From Thiotrichaceae bacterium (GTDB lineage: Bacteria > Pseudomonadota > Gammaproteobacteria > Thiotrichales > Thiotrichaceae), in contig WFWY01000054.1 in assembly GCA_015490895.1 (NCBI GenBank), positions 1-36,747 of the forward strand: a stretch of 36,747 nucleotides of DNA, given 5' to 3'. The notes under the pieces are model-generated. The model did not search any database and had not been told where the DNA came from. It saw only the letters and a program-made list of their open reading frames with translations. The position numbers and the translations under genes were made by a program. Numbering within the stretch: position 1 is the first letter of the stretch; every line of letters starts with the position of its first letter. This document shows, one piece after another, positions 19,292 to 29,491 of the stretch.

Positions 19292-20509
19292 TTAATGCAA
19301 GCTTGCCCAGCGTTTGCTAGTAAAAAAGTAACGGGAAACATAAAATATCAGGAAGCCAAGCATGCTAAGAAAAAACAGGTAGTTGAAATAACGGCTGCTG
19401 ATAACACCTTCCCGTACTATGAATTCAATCCCCGCCTGGAGCATGTTTGCAGGTGATTTTTTCTGCAGTACGGTGATTCGCAGTGAGTAGTTTCCTGGGT
19501 GGTCCAGCTTAAATCGTGCCTGGCCTTTTTGTTCCCGGCTATTGTCCTTTTTTTGCGACAGTTTGTCGGCAAAAGAAAAAACTTCTTTTTCTTCATCAAA
19601 CAAGGTGATATCGGTAATTTGCCAAAGAGAGGCATAGGGATTGTTAAAGGTGATTTCGGTAAGGTGTCTGGTCGTGTTAATTTGAAAGTCAAAAACAGTA
19701 ATGCCTGACGATAGTGATTGGGGTTTTTCATAGAGTACAGTGTTTCCGCCACCAAATAATGACAGGGCGAGCATAATAATGAGTGACAGCGCCAGAAATG
19801 GACGGCTGGCTTTTGAGAGTGTCTCACGCAATGGCGCCCGGAAAGGTTGAGCCGGGTGTATGAAGCTGCGGTGTGTCGTGTCTGTTACCGTGAAGCCGTT
19901 TTGGATGTCTTCAGGTTCAAGATACTCTGTAAGGTAGTACTCAAGCTCATTCTCCGTTTCTTCCAGCGTAAACAGATAGGGGGGCGAGATAGCATCACGG
20001 ATCAGGCTGGTGTCGCCGACCTTGGCAATCCAGGTTAGCTCACCGGCTACATAGGTTATTGTTGCCTGGTAGGCTTCAAAAAAAAGATAAGAGCGGTTAT
20101 TGACGTGCAGGCCTGTTTTGGGGCTTAAGTTTCGCATGTCCCGATCAGGCAAATAACGAACTCGCCGGGTAAAGGTGAAGTGCCCCAGTTGGTAGCTAAG
20201 CCAGGCATACCCATGAGTCTCTGAGTACAAATGCAAGTCTGTCCAGCGGTCGCCATAGGTAGAGACATAGGCGACCATGCCAATGATAGTAAAATGGACG
20301 CCCTTGATCTCACCTTCCATGCCGATTTCAAGAGGGCAGCCCTGAGGTTTGTTTTGTTCACTAAATTGTGCCAGTACCGCGTAGTCCTTGCGGGTATCCA
20401 TGACAGCACCGCAATATTCACAGTTCAGGGTGCGAATACGATGCCCTCCACCATATAAATTCAGGGGAGCCCCGCATTGTGTACACTGGATGCTTTTTAC
20501 TTTATCCAT
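19292..20509 (-). CDS. DUF4178 protein with zinc ribbon and two membrane helices
   Basis: 405 residues. A zinc ribbon is formed by Cys 9, 12, 30 and 33 (CTQCG ... CEYCG). DUF4178-like beta domains follow at about 55-115 and 130-190 (for example GDRWTDLHLYSETHGYAWLS). One hydrophobic helix lies at about 239-257 (FLALSLIIMLALSLF) and another near 375-397, separated by a beta-rich, probably periplasmic, region. The function is unknown; genes with DUF4178 domains have been noted next to PspA-like, polyamine-synthesis and DUF350 genes in other bacteria, none of which is seen here. It is the second gene of a minus-strand operon, 27 bp after the smaller DUF4178 gene. Confidence 0.8.
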   Translation of the reverse strand: MDKVKSIQCTQCGAPLNLYGGGHRIRTLNCEYCGAVMDTRKDYAVLAQFSEQNKPQGCPLEIGMEGEIKGVHFTIIGMVAYVSTYGDRWTDLHLYSETHGYAWLSYQLGHFTFTRRVRYLPDRDMRNLSPKTGLHVNNRSYLFFEAYQATITYVAGELTWIAKVGDTSLIRDAISPPYLFTLEETENELEYYLTEYLEPEDIQNGFTVTDTTHRSFIHPAQPFRAPLRETLSKASRPFLALSLIIMLALSLFGGGNTVLYEKPQSLSSGITVFDFQINTTRHLTEITFNNPYASLWQITDITLFDEEKEVFSFADKLSQKKDNSREQKGQARFKLDHPGNYSLRITVLQKKSPANMLQAGIEFIVREGVISSRYFNYLFFLSMLGFLIFYVSRYFFTSKRWASLH

Positions 20510-20536
20510 TGTTTATCGCTTGGTTTGCACCGCCTC

Positions 20537-21160
20537 TTATAGCGCGCTTCTAATCTCAAAAGGGTCAACCCATTCTCCCTTATAGGCTCGGGTCGTTTGC
20601 TCATAGTATTCCAGTGTTAATAATTGTCCACGCTTGTCGGAGAGGTGGGCATAGGGAAGAGACTCATTGACCCGAATAATTTCGGGCAGCTCACCTTCGA
20701 AACCTTCACATTGGCCTTCTCCAGTTTCGGTGACTTGCCAGTCAGTCTCATAAAGCTGTATGGATGCTCCAGGCTGGATGTCTGTATGTGAGGGTAATGC
20801 ATCTGCGGCAATATTCAGCGGTTTTTCAAAGGCAAAATCCCCCTCATCGACACTGATCCAGAATCCCTGTCCGCTATTGTCAACAGCCCACCATTCTTCC
20901 CAGAAGCCAACAGGGTGGCGATAGCGAACTTTTCCTACCGGGGTAAAAGAAGTGTGTTGATACTGAAACGGAGTCCCTAACTGGAGTAAACTGGGAATCT
21001 CACTGAGGACGGATTGTTTGCCAGCCAGTCTGACGGCATCATCCTCCAGAAATAATGTTGATCCACACGAGTCGCACACGGCTAACTTAGCGTATCGAAA
21101 GCTCAGTGGCAATTGGTTGCCACATTGTGGGCAGTTAATGACCCTGTTTTTTTTGTTCAT
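20537..21160 (-). CDS. Short DUF4178 protein with zinc ribbon
   Basis: 207 residues. Cys 10, 13, 29 and 32 (CPQCG ... CDSCG) form a zinc ribbon like that of the next gene. The remainder has the DUF4178 pattern: FTPVGKVRYRHPVGFWEEWW, then a second half with QLYETDWQVTETGEGQCEG and LTLEYYEQTTRAYKGEWVDP. No membrane segment. It and the 405-residue protein look like a soluble and a membrane-bound version of the same design. First gene of the operon, with its promoter presumably in the 361-bp gap upstream. The family function is not known. Confidence 0.8.
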   Translation of the reverse strand: MNKKNRVINCPQCGNQLPLSFRYAKLAVCDSCGSTLFLEDDAVRLAGKQSVLSEIPSLLQLGTPFQYQHTSFTPVGKVRYRHPVGFWEEWWAVDNSGQGFWISVDEGDFAFEKPLNIAADALPSHTDIQPGASIQLYETDWQVTETGEGQCEGFEGELPEIIRVNESLPYAHLSDKRGQLLTLEYYEQTTRAYKGEWVDPFEIRSAL

Positions 21161-21521: not shown

Positions 21522-21851
21522 ATGAGTGATGTATATGATAAGGGTTTAGCGGATATCAAGCGTTATGATAATAATGTAGATACAGCGCTTGTCGCGGCCT
21601 TGGCTAAAAACTATGCTTTAGTAATGAACAATCGGGATGCTAGTGGCATAGCATGTAGCGACAAGAAAGAGCTGGAAACAGTAAAAAACAATTTCTTAAA
21701 GAAGAAACTGGGCTTGACGCTTGGTGATAGCGAGCTTGACGCCGCCATCGAAGAAGTCTGTAAAGTCATGTCGGCTGACAAGAAAAAATCCCGTTTGACT
21801 GCCTATTATCTTCTTGCAAAAAAGTTTGGCAAGGAATCGGTGTTTGTATAA
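21522..21851 (+). CDS. DUF2853 family protein
   Basis: 109 residues, a complete DUF2853 member: small, lysine-rich, helical. The family pattern is clear in DIKRYDNNVDTALVAALAKN, the NRDAS-x(8)-DKKELETVKNNFLKKKLGL stretch, the ELDAAIEEVCKVM helix and the closing KSRLTAYYLLAKKFG. No enzyme motif is present and the function is unknown. A good ribosome site (CGAAGGAG) and a plausible extended -10 promoter precede it. It is followed 50 bp later by coaE on the same strand. Confidence 0.92.
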   Translation: MSDVYDKGLADIKRYDNNVDTALVAALAKNYALVMNNRDASGIACSDKKELETVKNNFLKKKLGLTLGDSELDAAIEEVCKVMSADKKKSRLTAYYLLAKKFGKESVFV

Positions 21852-21901
21852 GGCGGTAATTTGTCGCAGGGTTTGAGTCGGAATTCCTGACAGTACGAGT
21901 G

Positions 21902-22495
21902 ATGAAAAAGATAGGGTTGACAGGTGGTATGGGCTGTGGGAAAAGTACCGCCGTGCGGTTTTTTCGGCAATATGATACTCCCATTATTGATGCTGATCAG
22001 ATTGCGCGACAGTTGGTAGAGCCGGGTGAACCACTATTGCAACGCATCACAAAGGTATTTGGGGAGCAGATTATCCGGCCCGGTGGAAAGCTTGACCGGG
22101 TGTTGCTCAAAAAACAGGTTTTTGCTCATAGTCACTTGCTGCACCAGTTGGAATCCATTCTGCACCCTGCTATTCGTCAGCGTATTATCCAGCAAATGCA
22201 ACAATACGGGGCCATGAACATTCCCTATATCATTGTGGATGTGCCACTGTTAGTGGAAAAAGGTTACGAAAACCTGTTTGATGCTGTTATTGTCGTAGAC
22301 TGTGAGCCTGAACAGCAGTTAGAAAGAATTGCTAAAAGGGATTTGCTGGACAAAGAACAAATTACGTCAATTATTGCGAAACAGGCAAGCCGAAAAGAAC
22401 GTCTGGAAATCGCCACGGAAACATTAGATAATAGCGGTTCAGTTGAGGCGCTTGCTGCTCAGGTAAAAGCATTGCATGTCAGGTTTTCCCGGTAA
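21902..22495 (+). CDS. coaE: Dephospho-CoA kinase
   Basis: 197 residues. CoaE performs the last step of coenzyme A synthesis, phosphorylating the ribose 3'-OH of dephospho-CoA with ATP. The P-loop GLTGGMGCGKST is at residues 5-16, the substrate-lid region DADQIARQLVEPGEP follows near 31, and VDVPLLVEKGYE and the CEPEQQLERIAKRD segment are typical. The ATG at 21902 is preferred; a GTG directly before it is possible. In many gammaproteobacteria coaE sits between pilD and zapD-yacG; here zapD is kept but pilD and yacG are not next to it. Confidence 0.95.
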   Translation: MKKIGLTGGMGCGKSTAVRFFRQYDTPIIDADQIARQLVEPGEPLLQRITKVFGEQIIRPGGKLDRVLLKKQVFAHSHLLHQLESILHPAIRQRIIQQMQQYGAMNIPYIIVDVPLLVEKGYENLFDAVIVVDCEPEQQLERIAKRDLLDKEQITSIIAKQASRKERLEIATETLDNSGSVEALAAQVKALHVRFSR

Positions 22496-22706: not shown

Positions 22707-23480
22707 ATGATCACCTATGAACAACCGTTAAATGAAAAAATACGCCTGTTTATGCGGCTCGAGCATATGTTTGAACGGTTTGATTATTATATTTCAAATC
22801 CATCGAGAGAAAATAGCCAGACAGCCATTGAATTATTGCTGGAAATTCATGAAATGTCATCACGGCTGGATGTAAAAAGTGCCATACTGAAAATTATTGA
22901 CCATCAGGCTACGGTTATAAAAAACTATCATGGCGAAGTGGATGATGTTGCTGAAGCACAAAAAAATACCATAGTCAGTGTACTGGAAGAGAAAACCAAA
23001 GAGCTGTACGGGTTTCATGGCAAGTTTGGCCAGCATATGAATCAGCATTACTTTTTGAATTTTGTAAAGCAGCGACTTTCCGTGAGTGGTGGTTTGAATG
23101 GTTTTGATGCACCTATCTTTAACTTATGGATTAATCAGCCGGTAGAGACTCGTACTGAACAGTTGCTGGAGTGGGTAGAGCCCTATGAGAAATCTCGGGA
23201 GGCGATTGTTCTGGTGATGGATATCATCCGAAAAAGTACCGAAGAGGTAGAGAGTATTGCCAAAAATGGCTTTTATCAGGCTACATTGAGTGAGCGAAAT
23301 AAAAATAAGGATTTTCAGTTGTTACGTGTACATATTCCCAACAGCTATTCCTGTTACCCGGAAATTAGTGCAGGGCGGCAACGTTTCTCGGTGCGTTTTG
23401 TTGCAGTCGAAGCACTGGAGACCCGAAGTAAGCAGGTGCAGGATGATGTCCCCTTTTCATTAAGTATTTGCGGATTCTAG
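22707..23480 (+). CDS. zapD: Cell division protein ZapD
   Basis: 257 residues. ZapD binds the C-terminal tail of FtsZ and crosslinks its filaments at the Z-ring. Family features are the start YEQPLNEKIRLFMRLEHMF, the all-helical N-terminal half, NFVKQRLSVSGGLNGFDAPI in the middle, and the C-terminal beta domain with PEISAGRQRFSVRFV. The basic residues in the latter are the kind used to bind the acidic FtsZ tail. It follows coaE after a 211-bp gap with a possible promoter (TATAAA near 22662). The first coiled-coil membrane gene starts two bases after its stop. Confidence 0.94.
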   Translation: MITYEQPLNEKIRLFMRLEHMFERFDYYISNPSRENSQTAIELLLEIHEMSSRLDVKSAILKIIDHQATVIKNYHGEVDDVAEAQKNTIVSVLEEKTKELYGFHGKFGQHMNQHYFLNFVKQRLSVSGGLNGFDAPIFNLWINQPVETRTEQLLEWVEPYEKSREAIVLVMDIIRKSTEEVESIAKNGFYQATLSERNKNKDFQLLRVHIPNSYSCYPEISAGRQRFSVRFVAVEALETRSKQVQDDVPFSLSICGF

Positions 23481-23482
23481 TG

Positions 23483-24052
23483 ATGCCGTTGAATGTAGAG
23501 CAAGCCACGGATCAGGAGCTGTTTGGCGATACCTTTGAAAAATTGAAAGAAGGTGTTTTAAAGCAGGGTGCTGCACAGAGAAGGGTTGCGGTGCGGGTAA
23601 AATACCTGATTCGCTCCATCACGGTTGCGATTGTTACCAGTTTGCTGTTTATCTTTTATCTCATTCACCTGTTGACACGTCAGGTTGATGTGTTGACGGA
23701 ACAACTGGATGTGATCTCAGTTGAAGGTGAGCGGGTACTGCACAGTGTCAGGAATATCGATACTGTTATGATGAAGTTTGAAGCGCAGATGAATACCTTG
23801 CCGGATATTACGGATTCGGTTGTTAGTATAAACCAGAATTTGTCGCTGGTTACGAGGAACGTGGCAGGCGTGTCTGATAATATCGGTACGATCAATCGTG
23901 AAGTGTATGAGCTGCGGCAGACCATGAATTATGTTTCCCAAAATATCCAGAAACTGGAATATACGGTTTATCAGGTAAATCAGGATGTTAATTCTGCCAC
24001 AAAACCGATAAAGCGCTTTAATGACTTAAACCCGTTTAATTATTTACGCTGA
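23483..24052 (+). CDS. Membrane-anchored coiled-coil protein A (downstream of zapD)
   Basis: 189 residues. The N-terminal 38 residues are hydrophilic with basic residues just before the membrane (QRRVAVRVKYLIR), then one helix at about 43-64 (ITVAIVTSLLFIFYLIHLLT). By the positive-inside rule the C-terminal 125 residues should be periplasmic; they form heptad-like coiled coil rich in Val, Ile, Asn and Ser, ending in a proline-containing tail, TKPIKRFNDLNPFNYLR. No enzymatic or known signalling motif is seen. The ATG at 23483 begins two bases after the zapD stop, so translation may be coupled. It matches the following gene in size and layout. Similar genes in other bacteria may be misannotated; function unknown. 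Confidence 0.8.
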   Translation: MPLNVEQATDQELFGDTFEKLKEGVLKQGAAQRRVAVRVKYLIRSITVAIVTSLLFIFYLIHLLTRQVDVLTEQLDVISVEGERVLHSVRNIDTVMMKFEAQMNTLPDITDSVVSINQNLSLVTRNVAGVSDNIGTINREVYELRQTMNYVSQNIQKLEYTVYQVNQDVNSATKPIKRFNDLNPFNYLR

Positions 24053-24068
24053 TGGATACCATTGAGTG

Positions 24069-24611
24069 ATGAAAATTTCCCGACCCGAGATAGAACAAGT
24101 TCATGCGAGCATGGTGGATTTACTGGAAAATGCCAACCAGCAAGATGCTCTGAACAGGGAAAACATCCATGGGACCAATCGGGTTATTTTAGTCTTCACA
24201 TTAATTGGCGCGATATTGACGTTGTCGATTTTTTTCATGTTTGTTGGTCTGGCCAAGGCAATTAATCATTCGGTAGACAGTATGATTACCATGAAGTCTC
24301 AAGTGGTTGAGCTTCGCAATACCATGGATAGCATTACTGATCATGTGGAAAGCATGGGGCGAGATGTAGAAACCTTGTATGACATGAATGAAAGTGCTGG
24401 AGAAATTGCACTTAAAACAGGTATTATCAATACCTATATTGCGAAGCTGAATGACCAGTCTAGCTTGCTTGGTTCTGAAGTATCCTATGTGCGATACCAT
24501 ATTGGTGAAATGAATCAACGTTTTTCACGGATTAATCAGTCCATGGGAGGAGTTGCATTTTCCATGCACGAAACCGCCTTGCCTATTCGGCAGTTCATCC
24601 CTCTGCCCTGA
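24069..24611 (+). CDS. Membrane-anchored coiled-coil protein B
   Basis: 180 residues, laid out like its upstream neighbour: a hydrophilic start of about 38 residues, one transmembrane helix at about 40-62 (VILVFTLIGAILTLSIFFMF), and a coiled-coil stretch of about 110 residues (ELRNTMDSITDHVESMGRDV, LNDQSSLLGSEVSYVRYHIG). The tail ends ALPIRQFIPLP, recalling the proline tail of protein A, which suggests a duplicated pair that could form a hetero-oligomer. The ATG at 24069 lies 16 bp after the first gene; a GTG one codon earlier is possible. No known domain is recognised. Confidence 0.8.
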   Translation: MKISRPEIEQVHASMVDLLENANQQDALNRENIHGTNRVILVFTLIGAILTLSIFFMFVGLAKAINHSVDSMITMKSQVVELRNTMDSITDHVESMGRDVETLYDMNESAGEIALKTGIINTYIAKLNDQSSLLGSEVSYVRYHIGEMNQRFSRINQSMGGVAFSMHETALPIRQFIPLP

Positions 24612-24700: not shown

Positions 24701-24925
24701 TTCCCTGTGTTTTCAAGACGCATATACAGGGTGATTTATGTGCCTGAAAGAGATATACTGTGCCACCTTTGCTTTGCCTGCGTGGCAGGCGTAGCTCACA
24801 TGGTCAGGATTTTTCAAGTGCATCCCTAAATGGAGTATTGTAATGACGACAGTACGGGATTTGCTTGGGTAACACTTTTCTGGTCAGTGAATAATTCTAT
24901 TAGCTAATTATGAGGTTTAGTGTTA
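24701..24925. other. Intergenic region upstream of gltB
   Basis: Together with the element fragment this makes a 314-bp gap between protein B and gltB. GCCTGC-GTG-GCAGGC (24776-24790) is a perfect 6-bp hairpin that might end upstream transcription, although no T tract follows. I see no sigma-54 promoter with correct spacing. Confidence 0.4.
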
Positions 24926-27900
24926 ATGCACCCTGGAGTTCTACCTTCCCCTAAAGGACTATACGACCCCGCGAATGAACATGACGCGTGTGGCGTTGGT
25001 TTTGTTGCACATATCAAGGGCGAGAAATCGCATGACATCATTCAGCAAGGCCTGACTATTCTGAATCGCCTTGAACATCGTGGTGCTGTGGGCGCAGACC
25101 CGCTTGCTGGAGATGGCGCGGGTTTGTTGATGCAGATTTCTGATGATTTCTTTCGGGCGAGTATTGATTTTGAATTGCCACCAGAGGGTGAATACGGTAT
25201 CGGGATGCTGTTTTTACCACAATCTGATGCCGAACGTGCCAGCATAGAAGAAGAAATAGCGGGGGTCATTAACGAAGAGGAGCAGCAGTTACTGGGGTGG
25301 CGCGATGTTCCGGTTGATAACTCAGGGCTTGGAGAAAGTGTATTGCCAACTGAGCCTCGCATCCGCCAGGTTTTTATCGGCAAAGGTGAGACGACAGCTG
25401 ATCAGAATGCCCTGGAGCGCAAGCTGTTTGTGATCCATAAGCGTGTGACTACCCGTATTGCAGAGATGCCTGGCGCAGACTATTTTTATGTGAACTCCAT
25501 GTCAACGCGCACCATTGTTTATAAAGGCATGTTGCTTGCAGGGCAGGTGGGTGAATTCTATAAAGATCTAAACGATGAGCGTATGGTCTCTGCACTGGCA
25601 CTGGTGCATCAGCGCTTTTCAACGAATACATTTCCTACCTGGGATTTGGCACACCCGTTCCGCATGATTGCCCATAATGGAGAAATTAATACCAATCAGG
25701 GCAATGTCAACTGGATGGCGGCACGCCGTCACTCCATGGCGTCGGATATTCTGGGTGATGATCTTACTAAAATCTGGCCGTTGATTCCCGAAGGACAGTC
25801 GGACTCCGCCTGTTTTGATAATGCGTTAGAGTTGCTGGTTGCCGGTGGTTATAGTTTGACTCATGCCATGATGATGCTGATACCTGAAGCCTGGTATGGC
25901 AATGATTTAATGGATAGCAAACGCCGCGCTTTTTATGAATATCATGCTGCATTGATGGAACCCTGGGATGGCCCCGCAGCTGTTGCTTTTACGGATGGGC
26001 GTCAGATTGGTGCCACACTCGACAGAAATGGCCTGCGTCCGGCGCGTTATCTGATTACTGATGATGATCTGGTCGTGATGGCGTCAGAAATGGGAGTGCT
26101 GGAAATCCCTGAAGAAAAGATTATAAAAAAATGGCGTTTGCAGCCCGGCAAGATGTTTCTGATTGATATGGAGCAGGGATGTATTATTGATGATAAGGCA
26201 TTAAAAGATGAGCTGGCTTCCAGAGCACCTTATACCGAGTGGCTGGAACAGACCCAGCTTCTGGTATCCGAGCTGGAAACCGGGAGTGAAGAAAGCCTTC
26301 CTGAGGCTCTGACAGGTAACGCACTGTTGAATGCACAACAGGCCTTTGGTTATACCCAGGAAGACATGAAATTTATCCTCGAGCCAATGGTACAAAAAGG
26401 TGAAGAAGGGTTAGGTTCTATGGGAGCGGATAACCCGCAAGCCGTCCTTTCCAGTCGTCCCCGGCATTTGTCAAACTACTTCAAGCAGAATTTCGCACAG
26501 GTCACAAACCCCCCTATTGATCCTATTCGTGAAGAGATCGTTATGTCCCTGGTGTCACTGGTAGGGCCAAAGCCCAACCTGTTAGGTATGAATGATGCCG
26601 GATCCCAGCAGAGACTTGAGGTGACACAGCCAGTATTATCAAACCGGGATCTGGACAAAATCCGCCATATCAAGGCTTCCGGAGATGCCTTTCGCACAAA
26701 GACACTGGATATGACCTATGATGCCCAGATGGGTGCAGAGGGGATGGAGCGTGCACTTGAGGACTTATGCCAACAGGCCGAAAAAGCAGTGTGTGGCCAT
26801 TATAATATTTTGATTCTGTCGGACAGGAATGTAGCCAGTGGACGCCTGGTGATTCCAGCCTTACTGGCCACTTCTGCTGTACATCAACACCTGATTCGTG
26901 AGGGCTTGCGTACTGAAACAGGTTTGGTGGTTGAGACAGGAGCTGCCTGGGAAAATCATCATTTTGCAACCTTGGCAGGTTATGGTGCAGAAGCTGTAAA
27001 CCCGTGGCTGGTTTTTGAGACCATCAATGAGAAAGTTGACAAGTTGGCACCGGGTATGACAGCCGAAACAGCCAGGAAGCACTACATCAAGGCTGTGGGT
27101 AAAGGTCTGAAAAAAGTCATGTCCAAAATGGGTATTTCAACTTACCAGTCTTATTGTGGCGCGCAGATATTCGATGCGGTGGGGCTCTCAACAGCATTTA
27201 TTGACAAGTATTTCACGGGGACTTCCAGCAAAATTGAAGGTATTGGCTTATCAGAGATTGCAGCTGAAGCAGCCCGTTTGCACGACAATGCCTACGGCGA
27301 TAGTGAAATTTATATTGATCATCTGGATGTTGGTGGTGATTACGCTTACCGGGTTCGTGGTGAGGCACATGCCTGGACACCTGAGACCATTGCTAAATTG
27401 CAACATGCTGTACGCGGTAATAATGCCAAAACCTATGAAGAGTTTTCACGCATTATAAATGAACAAAACAAGGCTTTACTTAATTTCCGTGGTTTAATGG
27501 AGTTTAACTGGACAACGACTCCCATCCCTCTGGAAGAAGTCGAACCTGCCAGTGAAATAGTGAAACGCTTTGCGACTGGAGCGATGTCGTTCGGCAGTAT
27601 TTCCTATGAAGCACATTCCACACTGGCTATTGCCATGAATGCAATTGGTGGTAAATCCAACACCGGCGAGGGCGGTGAGGAACCGGAGCGTTTTAATCCG
27701 CTCGCGGATGGTTCCCCCAATCCGGAGCGCTCTGCCATCAAGCAAGTAGCATCTGGACGTTTTGGGGTAACGACAGAATACCTGGTGAATGCTGATGATA
27801 TTCAGATAAAAATGGCGCAGGGCGCCAAGCCCGGTGAAGGTGGGCAACTGCCAGGGCATAAAGTAGATGAGCGTATTGGTCGGGTACGTCACTCCACCCC

Positions 27901-29491
27901 GGGTGTAGGTCTGATTTCGCCACCACCACACCATGACATTTATTCTATTGAGGATCTTGCACAACTTATTCATGACCTGAAAAATGTCAACCCCGGGGCG
28001 CGTGTGTCGGTAAAACTGGTTTCAGAAGTTGGTGTGGGTACGGTTGCAGCAGGTGTTTCCAAGGCTCATGCGGATCATGTGACAATCTCCGGTTATGACG
28101 GAGGCACGGGCGCCTCACCACTGACTTCACTAAAACATGCCGGGTCATCCTGGGAACTGGGGCTGGCCGAGACCCATCAAACATTGGTACTCAACAAGTT
28201 ACGTAGCCGAATCAGTGTGCAGGCAGATGGTGGTATGCGAACGGGGCGTGATGTGGTGGTTGCTGCATTGTTGGGGGCAGATGAGATTGGTTTTGCCACG
28301 GCACCACTGATAGCTGAAGGCTGCATTATGATGCGTAAGTGTCACCTGAACACCTGCCCGGTAGGGGTTGCTACCCAGGATCCCGATTTACGCAAGAAGT
28401 TTATGGGTAAACCTGAGCACGTTATTAACTACTTCTTCTTTGTGGCAGAAGAAGTCAGGCAGTTAATGGCGAAGCTGGGTTATCGTCGTTATGATGAAAT
28501 GGTTGGTCAGTCAGATCGTCTGAATATGAAAAAAGCCATAAAGCACTGGAAAGCGCAGGGGCTGGATTATACCAATATCCTGTACAAGCCGGAAGCCGGT
28601 GAGGGCGTGGGTATTTACTGTTCTGAAGCACAAGACCACGGGTTGGACAAGGCGCTGGATAACCAGTTGATTGAACAGGCGAAAGCTGCATTGCAATCAG
28701 GTGAAAAAGTTGAAATTGACATATCTATTCAGAATTCAAACCGTACGTTTGGCACTATGCTTTCCGGGCGGGTTGCGGAAAAGTACGGTCACTCGGGGTT
28801 GCCGGAAGATACCATTACCGTTAATGCAACGGGTACAGCGGGGCAATCCTTTGGTGCCTGGGTTGCCAGGGGGGTTACTATCAAGCTGGCAGGTGAAGGC
28901 AATGATTATGTCGGCAAGGGCTTATCCGGTGGCAAGCTTATTATTGCGCCGCCTGCGAACTCTGCACTGAAGAAAGCCGAAGATAATATTATTGTTGGTA
29001 ATACCGTGTTATATGGTGCCATTGCGGGTGAGTGCTACTTCCGTGGTGTAGCCGGTGAGCGTTTTGCAGTAAGGAACTCGGGAGCAACAGCAGTGATTGA
29101 AGGTGTTGGGGATCACGGCTGTGAGTATATGACAGGTGGTATCGTGGTCTGTCTGGGAGAAACCGGGCGTAATTTTGCTGCGGGTATGTCAGGTGGAATA
29201 GCCTATATATTTGATGCCTCTGGTGAATTTAACAGGCGTTGTAATACCGAAATGGTCGAACTGGAAAACATTAAGCCGGACTCTGCAGCTGCGGATATTA
29301 ACGACCTGACCCAGGCAGATGAAACACGCCTTAAGGGATTGATCAAGAAACACCTGGGCTATACAAACTCCGCCGTAGCGAAAACCATGCTGGATAACTG
29401 GGATGAAGTGTTAGGCAAGTTTATCAAAGTGATGCCAGTGGATTACAGGCGAGCACTTGAGCAGATGAAACAACAGAAAAAAGCAGCATAA
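24926..29491 (+). CDS. gltB: Glutamate synthase (NADPH) large subunit
   Basis: 1521 residues from the ATG at 24926 (TGAGG ribosome site). GltB and GltD convert glutamine plus 2-oxoglutarate to two glutamates. A short propeptide ends before Cys 22 (DA-CGVGF), the N-terminal nucleophile of the class II amidotransferase domain (about 22-420). The FMN-binding synthase domain contains [13 protein letters not shown] (about 885) and [13 protein letters not shown]; the [3Fe-4S] cysteines are 1133, 1139 and 1144 (CHLNTCPVG). The C-terminal GXGXG helix domain (about 1270-1480) carries [14 protein letters not shown] and [19 protein letters not shown]. gltD follows after 15 bp. With glnN this gives a GS-GOGAT pathway. 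Confidence 0.98.

Follow-up and report, generated by a model that had tools for sequence, protein, structure and literature searches.

Gene organization of the locus

The window analysed here is a stretch of 36,747 nucleotides from a Thiotrichaceae bacterium whose assembly comprises 171 contigs. On its + strand the genes coaE (21899-22495), zapD (22707..23480), A (23483..24052), B (24069..24611) and gltB (24920-29491) follow one another in this order, coaE and gltB being named from sequence. The neighbour upstream of A was confirmed as zapD, which encodes an FtsZ crosslinker, by both Pfam (PF07072, E 6e-54) and the NCBIfam equivalog NF003656 (E 2e-69). As the preliminary description of this DNA had stated, zapD is followed by two consecutive open reading frames of 189 and 180 residues, and A starts from the ATG at 23483, two bases past the zapD stop. 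The ATG at 24069 was taken as the start of B, with the GTG at 24066 as an alternative. In the window genome, A and B probably share transcription with zapD. A 109-aa gene was located upstream of coaE (21522-21851, +), and a similar gene precedes coaE-zapD in four loci of genus g7 (L122-L125). On the - strand, two adjoining genes (19292-21160) encode proteins with zinc-ribbon-like N-termini, one of which has hydrophobic segments in its C-terminal half.

The plan described earlier for both products, in which one transmembrane (TM) segment is followed by a long coil and then by a short tail containing proline, was confirmed, and the tail sequences given for them are present. In A, hydropathy placed the TM segment at about residues 46-66 (23618..23680, +), behind the juxtamembrane Arg44 (codon 23612..23614, +, computed from the A start). 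This residue and the mid-coil Pro107 (codon 23801..23803, +) were invariant in 18/18 aligned sequences, as were P175, F179, N180 and P184 of the tip motif P175-x8-P184 with F185 (24005..24037, +), in which F185 was almost invariant. In B, the TM segment lies at about residues 38-60 (24180..24248, +), and P172, F176, P178 and P180 of its tip motif (24582..24608, +) were invariant in 15/15 aligned sequences. The distance from tip Pro to C-terminus was 15 residues in A and 9 in B.

Topology and predicted structure

Thirty tandem pairs from 10 families (15 family orthologues, 2 from genus g2 and 13 from other families) were aligned, and the Lys and Arg residues on both sides of the TM segment were counted. 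In the 15 residues before versus after it, the mean was 4.6 versus 0.8 for A and 3.2 versus 1.1 for B, with the excess on the N-terminal side in 30/30 A and 27/30 B. Cytochrome c assembly takes place in the periplasm, and two coil relatives carry a fused C-terminal cytochrome c domain (PF13442; L154:1177-2070 in G001 and L171:2071-2988 in G021). Because of the charge bias and these two fusions, the coil of A and B is predicted to lie on the periplasmic side. A coil periodicity of 3.48-3.51 residues was determined, and each of the six stretches examined lay above the 99th percentile of its shuffles. The proposal of an inner-membrane-spanning pair with a periplasmic coil was supported, as a prediction.

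Single chains were modelled by AF2 with family alignments. Two helices (10-103 and 109-182; pLDDT 77.0, pTM 0.26) were predicted for A, and the break between them (104-108) coincided with the conserved Pro107, while one helix (5-176; pLDDT 77.7, pTM 0.29) was predicted for B. The profile alignment of A with B covered most of their length, and its hhalign score of 111.2 was above all 100 heptad-block shuffles used as control (mean 64.6, sd 10.2, max 93.7), so that the two proteins apparently share a common ancestry.

Comparison with known families

Scans of A and B against Pfam, NCBIfam and PADLOC gave only low-scoring matches to assorted coil families. No cut-off of Pfam or NCBIfam was reached, for A among the best 25 of 30 Pfam rows and for B among 14 of 14 rows (E <= 1), in agreement with the earlier statement that neither protein has a recognised domain. 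The PDB profile searches returned 17 sequences for A and 12 for B, largely chemoreceptor coils, designed coiled coils and fibre-type proteins, which were read as generic coil hits. A chemoreceptor (MCP) fragment, the known family that the preliminary description had named as a possible match, was rejected. The MCP coil is a heptad coil as in A and B and provided the best PDB matches of A, but PF00015 scored 14.8 bits for A against a cut-off of 34.6 and was not among the 14 rows of B, and the coil of A and B is predicted to be periplasmic. DUF948 (PF06103; 23.7 bits for A and 13.9 for B, cut-off 37.2) was rejected as well; no clear match to a known family was obtained from the profile searches.

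Several known proteins resemble A and B in build. FtsL and FtsB are a bitopic pair with periplasmic coiled coils, shorter than those of A and B, and were not among the best 25 of 30 Pfam rows for A or the 14 of 14 for B. AcrZ, a small membrane protein accompanying an RND pump, as A and B may also be, is a single short helix, whereas A and B have long periplasmic coils. The coil of ZapG/YhcB is cytoplasmic, whereas that of A and B is predicted to be periplasmic from the charge bias, with which the cytochrome c fusions of relatives agree. ZapG/YhcB, a small bitopic coiled-coil protein tied to division according to an extract of PMC8163987, was therefore rejected; its domain DUF1043 was also absent from the same rows of A and B (E <= 1).

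Membership in the Lpp family was rejected at 15.5 (A) and 13.5 (B) bits for PF04728 against a cut-off of 29.1. Lpp is an outer-membrane lipoprotein, whereas A and B are paired bitopic proteins of the inner membrane; the likeness lies in a periplasmic coil, whose length in Lpp sets an envelope distance (extract of PMC5736177). In the same extract, lengthening of Lpp by 14 or 21 residues made the E. coli periplasm 3 and 4 nm wider. No Lpp (PF04728) match was detected in any of the 19 A-bearing genomes searched, which is not special to them because only one of 14 controls, E. coli, had a match. Among the titles and abstract openings listed from open-licence PMC papers, none describes the A/B family.

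Distribution within the family

With a threshold of E below 1e-77, A orthologues were found in 16 of 63 family genomes (g1 4/6, g6 3/3 and g8 9/9), and two genomes of genus g2 (G018 and G073) carry more distant A-B pairs. B adjoins A in 15 of these 16 genomes, and the contig ends in the 16th. All 15 aligned family orthologues of B are 180 aa long and ungapped, so the conservation of both genes beyond chance was borne out. The distribution of the pair in the family is patchy, and it is therefore no universal spacer. In a named collection, the records matching the A profile were Thiotrichaceae, Cocleimonas and Leucothrix MAGs and one labelled Aquificaceae; the locus of the latter (L054, QOAQ01000077.1) is typical of family genus g8 and probably comes from a mislabelled MAG.

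The conservation of zapD-A-B synteny, proposed as a check in the preliminary description, was limited. A lies behind coaE-zapD, or behind zapD at a contig end, in seven genomes of two genera (G000, G001, G002, G003, G010, G015 and G021), with a zapD-A spacing of 0 to ~40 bases in all seven. In all nine g8 genomes, the place of zapD upstream of A is taken by an ExbB-like gene together with two small genes, D1 and D2, whose products have one TM segment each. Such a set was noted at L033:6882-9131 and its relatives. zapD itself is present in 58 of 63 family genomes, of which 14 have A; the other 44 are without full-length A, two of them having a distant pair. These two observations, A away from zapD in 9 of 16 genomes and a phylogenetic profile that is not shared (58/63 against 16/63), are largely those that the preliminary description had itself named as speaking against a coupling to zapD, and such coupling as the key to function was not supported. 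Of the division-site or envelope scaffold suggested there, the inner-membrane-spanning pair stood, and the division link was not conserved. When A and B were combined for tree building, the clade with ExbB linkage fell inside a set of zapD-linked lineages. Linkage to zapD may therefore be the ancestral state within the family, but the A-only tree disagrees with this nesting, and the position of G001 is weak.

Occurrence and neighbouring genes outside the family

Matches to the A profile were found in 60 of 369 genomes of the class, own genome included (E <= 1e-6), and among the best loci a script called 13 tandem pairs, which come from 12 genomes and nine other families. Their neighbours within a few kb vary: one pair has maf directly upstream, another a dCache-type protein, and a third an HlyD-type adaptor and RND gene; among the matches listed, thiC (named from sequence), an OmpA-family gene or a FecR-family gene lies near other pairs. 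The order MFP-RND-A-B was seen in one genome of the class (G293). In the phylum, 37 of 398 genomes had matches (E <= 1e-12), the own genome and 36 outside the class, and the script called 16 tandem pairs among the best 18 loci outside the class. In 15 of these 18 loci, tblastn placed the end of an AcrB-type RND gene just before A, with PF00873 confirmed in two (L252 and L257), and in L252 the OEP, HlyD-type and RND genes stand in a row ahead of A-B. By tblastn, the stretches around the family loci with A, 18 in total (7 zapD, 9 ExbB and 2 dCache-type), gave no RND gene, and neither did those around 12 of the 13 other pairs of the class; the RND-linked pairs fell mostly in one clade of the tree. 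The commonest neighbour is the RND pump outside the class, and zapD and ExbB-type genes within the family.

The ZapD of the window, used as tblastn query at E 1e-8, had no match around the 13 class pairs of other families or at the 18 loci outside the class, 12 of which were also covered in wider stretches. In three genomes (L036:9644-10747, L166:3887-6095 and L202:7101-9339), the gene immediately before an A-B-like pair encodes a dCache/PDC-type protein in which Pfam found no output domain, and the three B proteins with such a neighbour are without the tip Pro.

Constancy of length

Length was measured as the span from the juxtamembrane Arg44 to the tip Pro175 after alignment to the A model. 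In all 30 pairs, the span of A was 132 residues with zero indels. The span of B was 132 in 15 pairs and 130 to 137 in the other 15; zero indels were found in model columns 68-173 of B in 30/30 pairs, the differences being confined to columns 44-67, in or beside the TM segment, plus the tip in three cases. The spread of length before versus after the TM centre was sd 11.2 versus 2.5 for A and 7.2 versus 3.2 for B, and within the family the N-terminal part of B was also nearly constant (sd 0.6). The mid-coil Pro and the tip Pro were 68 residues apart in 25 of 30 A, which are all those having both. Since some pairs are closely related (e.g. G254/G118, L228 to L230), the pair counts do not represent independent events.

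In 16 of 16 further pairs from outside the class, which were detected once the model had been fixed, both proteins spanned exactly 132 residues with Pro in place. Another 12 hits of this test were not called as pairs; in L232 and L233, A has 0 indels and RND upstream with the mate not called, and the other ten have indels. Among the relatives not called as pairs, 54 of 55 differed from 132, by a net -54 to +11, 28 of these being firm values (Pro at the model column) and 26 rough ones (Pro not at the column). The 55th, L007, with 0 difference, is a pair member cut by a contig end; L007, L232 and L233 were left out of the pair counts.

Single-gene relatives of the same plan

Single-gene proteins of the same plan occur in these genomes, many of them with a pair of prolines close to the tip, spaced nine residues apart. 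A survey of same-plan proteins retained 104 by a heuristic among the matches listed, including some outside the A/B family, and duplicates and rows with a weak TM segment were left out when the single-gene proteins were compiled. Within a subfamily, their length changes were mostly multiples of seven. In the 36 proteins whose motif before the TM segment could be recognised, to which this count was restricted and which include L157 with a probably wrong motif pick, the remainders mod 7 were 3 in 23, 0 in 7, 6 in 4 and 2 in 2. The related L197 and L198 are an exception, differing by 8 and not by 7.

The neighbourhoods of these relatives were also inspected. The own genome (C158) has, at about L037:755-11030, an adaptor-like gene (by eye), an RND gene (PF00873), one without Pfam match, a ParA/MipZ-like ATPase, a TPR-type membrane protein whose TPR match is below cut-off, a single coil relative and a dynamin-type GTPase (PF00350). 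Runs resembling this one were seen by inspection in nine other loci (L041, L043-L046, L048, L050, L165 and L167). An MMPL-type transporter is followed by a single coil relative at L209:4302-7649 and L213:4066-7416, that of L209 having a C-terminal cyclic-nucleotide-binding domain. Single coil relatives were further noted ~1.2-1.3 kb from rsmH-ftsL-ftsI-like genes (L216:6590-9670) and from mraY-murD-ftsW-like genes (L219:6329-11782), all named by eye.

Discussion

The conserved feature of this locus is the pair and its exact length, not the division link. The claims on the architecture and length of A and B are well supported, and the families, tandem pairing, topology signs, periodicity, constant length and neighbourhoods were obtained by computation. 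From the tandem genes, the equal and invariant coil length and the apparent common ancestry, we infer a heteromeric strut whose tip is held at a set height. A and B would be paralogues that together build one inner-membrane-anchored periplasmic strut, each of the two subunits having a cytoplasmic N-terminus, one TM helix, a fixed-length heptad coil and a proline/aromatic tip. Parallel, in-register pairing as a heterodimer or higher heteromer is most likely, given the tandem genes and equal coil length; the AF2 models, being single chains of low pTM, leave pairing and register as putative features. Helices rise 1.5 A per residue, and the ~109 residues from TM end to tip Pro would give a strut of ~16 nm from membrane to tip. 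The tip may dock on a partner that lies at the peptidoglycan layer or close to it, or else on a trans-envelope machine, and hold this partner at a set distance as a spacer. The varied contexts, with an RND pump, ExbB-type genes, zapD or a dCache-type protein nearby, suggest that the module is reused together with several envelope machines. We give roughly even weight for and against A and B being such a heteromeric, inner-membrane-anchored periplasmic strut of fixed length, used with several envelope machines.

The constant length could also arise with no ruler role, if an old heteromeric coil with strict layer packing tolerates no indels. The fixed 68 residues between mid-coil Pro and tip Pro are consistent with such packing, but the unpaired relatives do vary in length, often by whole heptads within a subfamily, and we consider this explanation somewhat unlikely, albeit the most credible of the alternatives. 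Slightly less probable is a role of A and B as accessory subunits of a tripartite RND efflux pump, in which case the copies at zapD and ExbB loci would be displaced relatives that serve an unlinked pump. The RND gene directly before A in most loci outside the class, the OEP, HlyD-type and RND genes ahead of A-B in L252 and the order in G293 fit this idea. So do an RND of the same type in the window genome (42-44% identical over long alignments), in an operon with a single-gene coil relative, and the MMPL-type gene directly before a single-gene relative in L209 and L213 and ~1.5 kb away in L211. It is weakened by the finding of no RND by tblastn around the 18 family loci with A and 12 of the 13 other class pairs, and by the concentration of RND-linked pairs mostly in one clade.

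A division-site scaffold coupled to ZapD appears very doubtful. The close zapD-A-B order in seven genomes of two genera speaks for it. The maf family was named in Bacillus for septum inhibition, and a maf gene (PF02545) precedes the pair of G192, the nearest one outside the family; the two single-gene relatives near division-cluster genes (L216 and L219) point in the same direction. However, the linkage is missing in 9 of 16 family genomes and at the other pairs examined, and 44 of the 58 zapD-bearing family genomes are without full-length A. A TolA/TonB-like energy transducer with an ExbB-type motor is the least probable reading and is regarded as highly improbable. The likeness consists in a bitopic periplasmic protein beside ExbB-type genes, A following the ExbB-like gene and the two small one-TM proteins in 9/9 g8 genomes, with PF01618 confirmed in one. 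But this linkage of A and B was seen in g8 only, 9 of the 16 family genomes with A, and a TolA/TonB identity based on conserved ExbB/ExbD linkage was rejected; no TolA or TonB domain was present among the Pfam rows listed. The D2 profile occurs in 27 of 63 family genomes (g8 9/9, g7 7/7, g4 10/12 and one g1 genome), 17 of them without full-length A, and the window genome has A and B and no D2 match. Instead of A, a ~500 aa membrane protein follows D2 in most g4 loci and in G001, usually in those g4 and g1 loci that extend far enough, and unrelated genes follow it in g7. An ExbB-D1-D2 operon as general partner of A-B was rejected because its profile does not follow that of A. D1 and D2 matched no Pfam model (in one g8 genome) and no NCBIfam model at E <= 0.001; 'ExbD-like' would be a label taken from their plan. 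A defence reading of the ExbB-like protein was dropped because its ZorA matches, confined to this protein, were weak.

Returning to the strut, a more specific role can be proposed with less confidence. A-B would be a ~16 nm ruler, anchored in the inner membrane, by which the spacing between this membrane and the peptidoglycan, or a trans-envelope machine, is set or sensed. It would correspond to Lpp but work from the opposite side of the wall, in bacteria without an Lpp match. We hold this to be speculative and on balance doubtful. Coil length as the setter of an envelope distance has a known precedent in Lpp (extract of PMC5736177), and the regulator of the distance between inner membrane and peptidoglycan was called unknown in a 2018 primer (PMC5771553). 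The two-gene family of A and B is widespread and unnamed, and with a periplasmic length fixed to the residue it offers a concrete candidate for an envelope spacer; A and B may also represent unrecognised subunits added to a set of RND pump operons.
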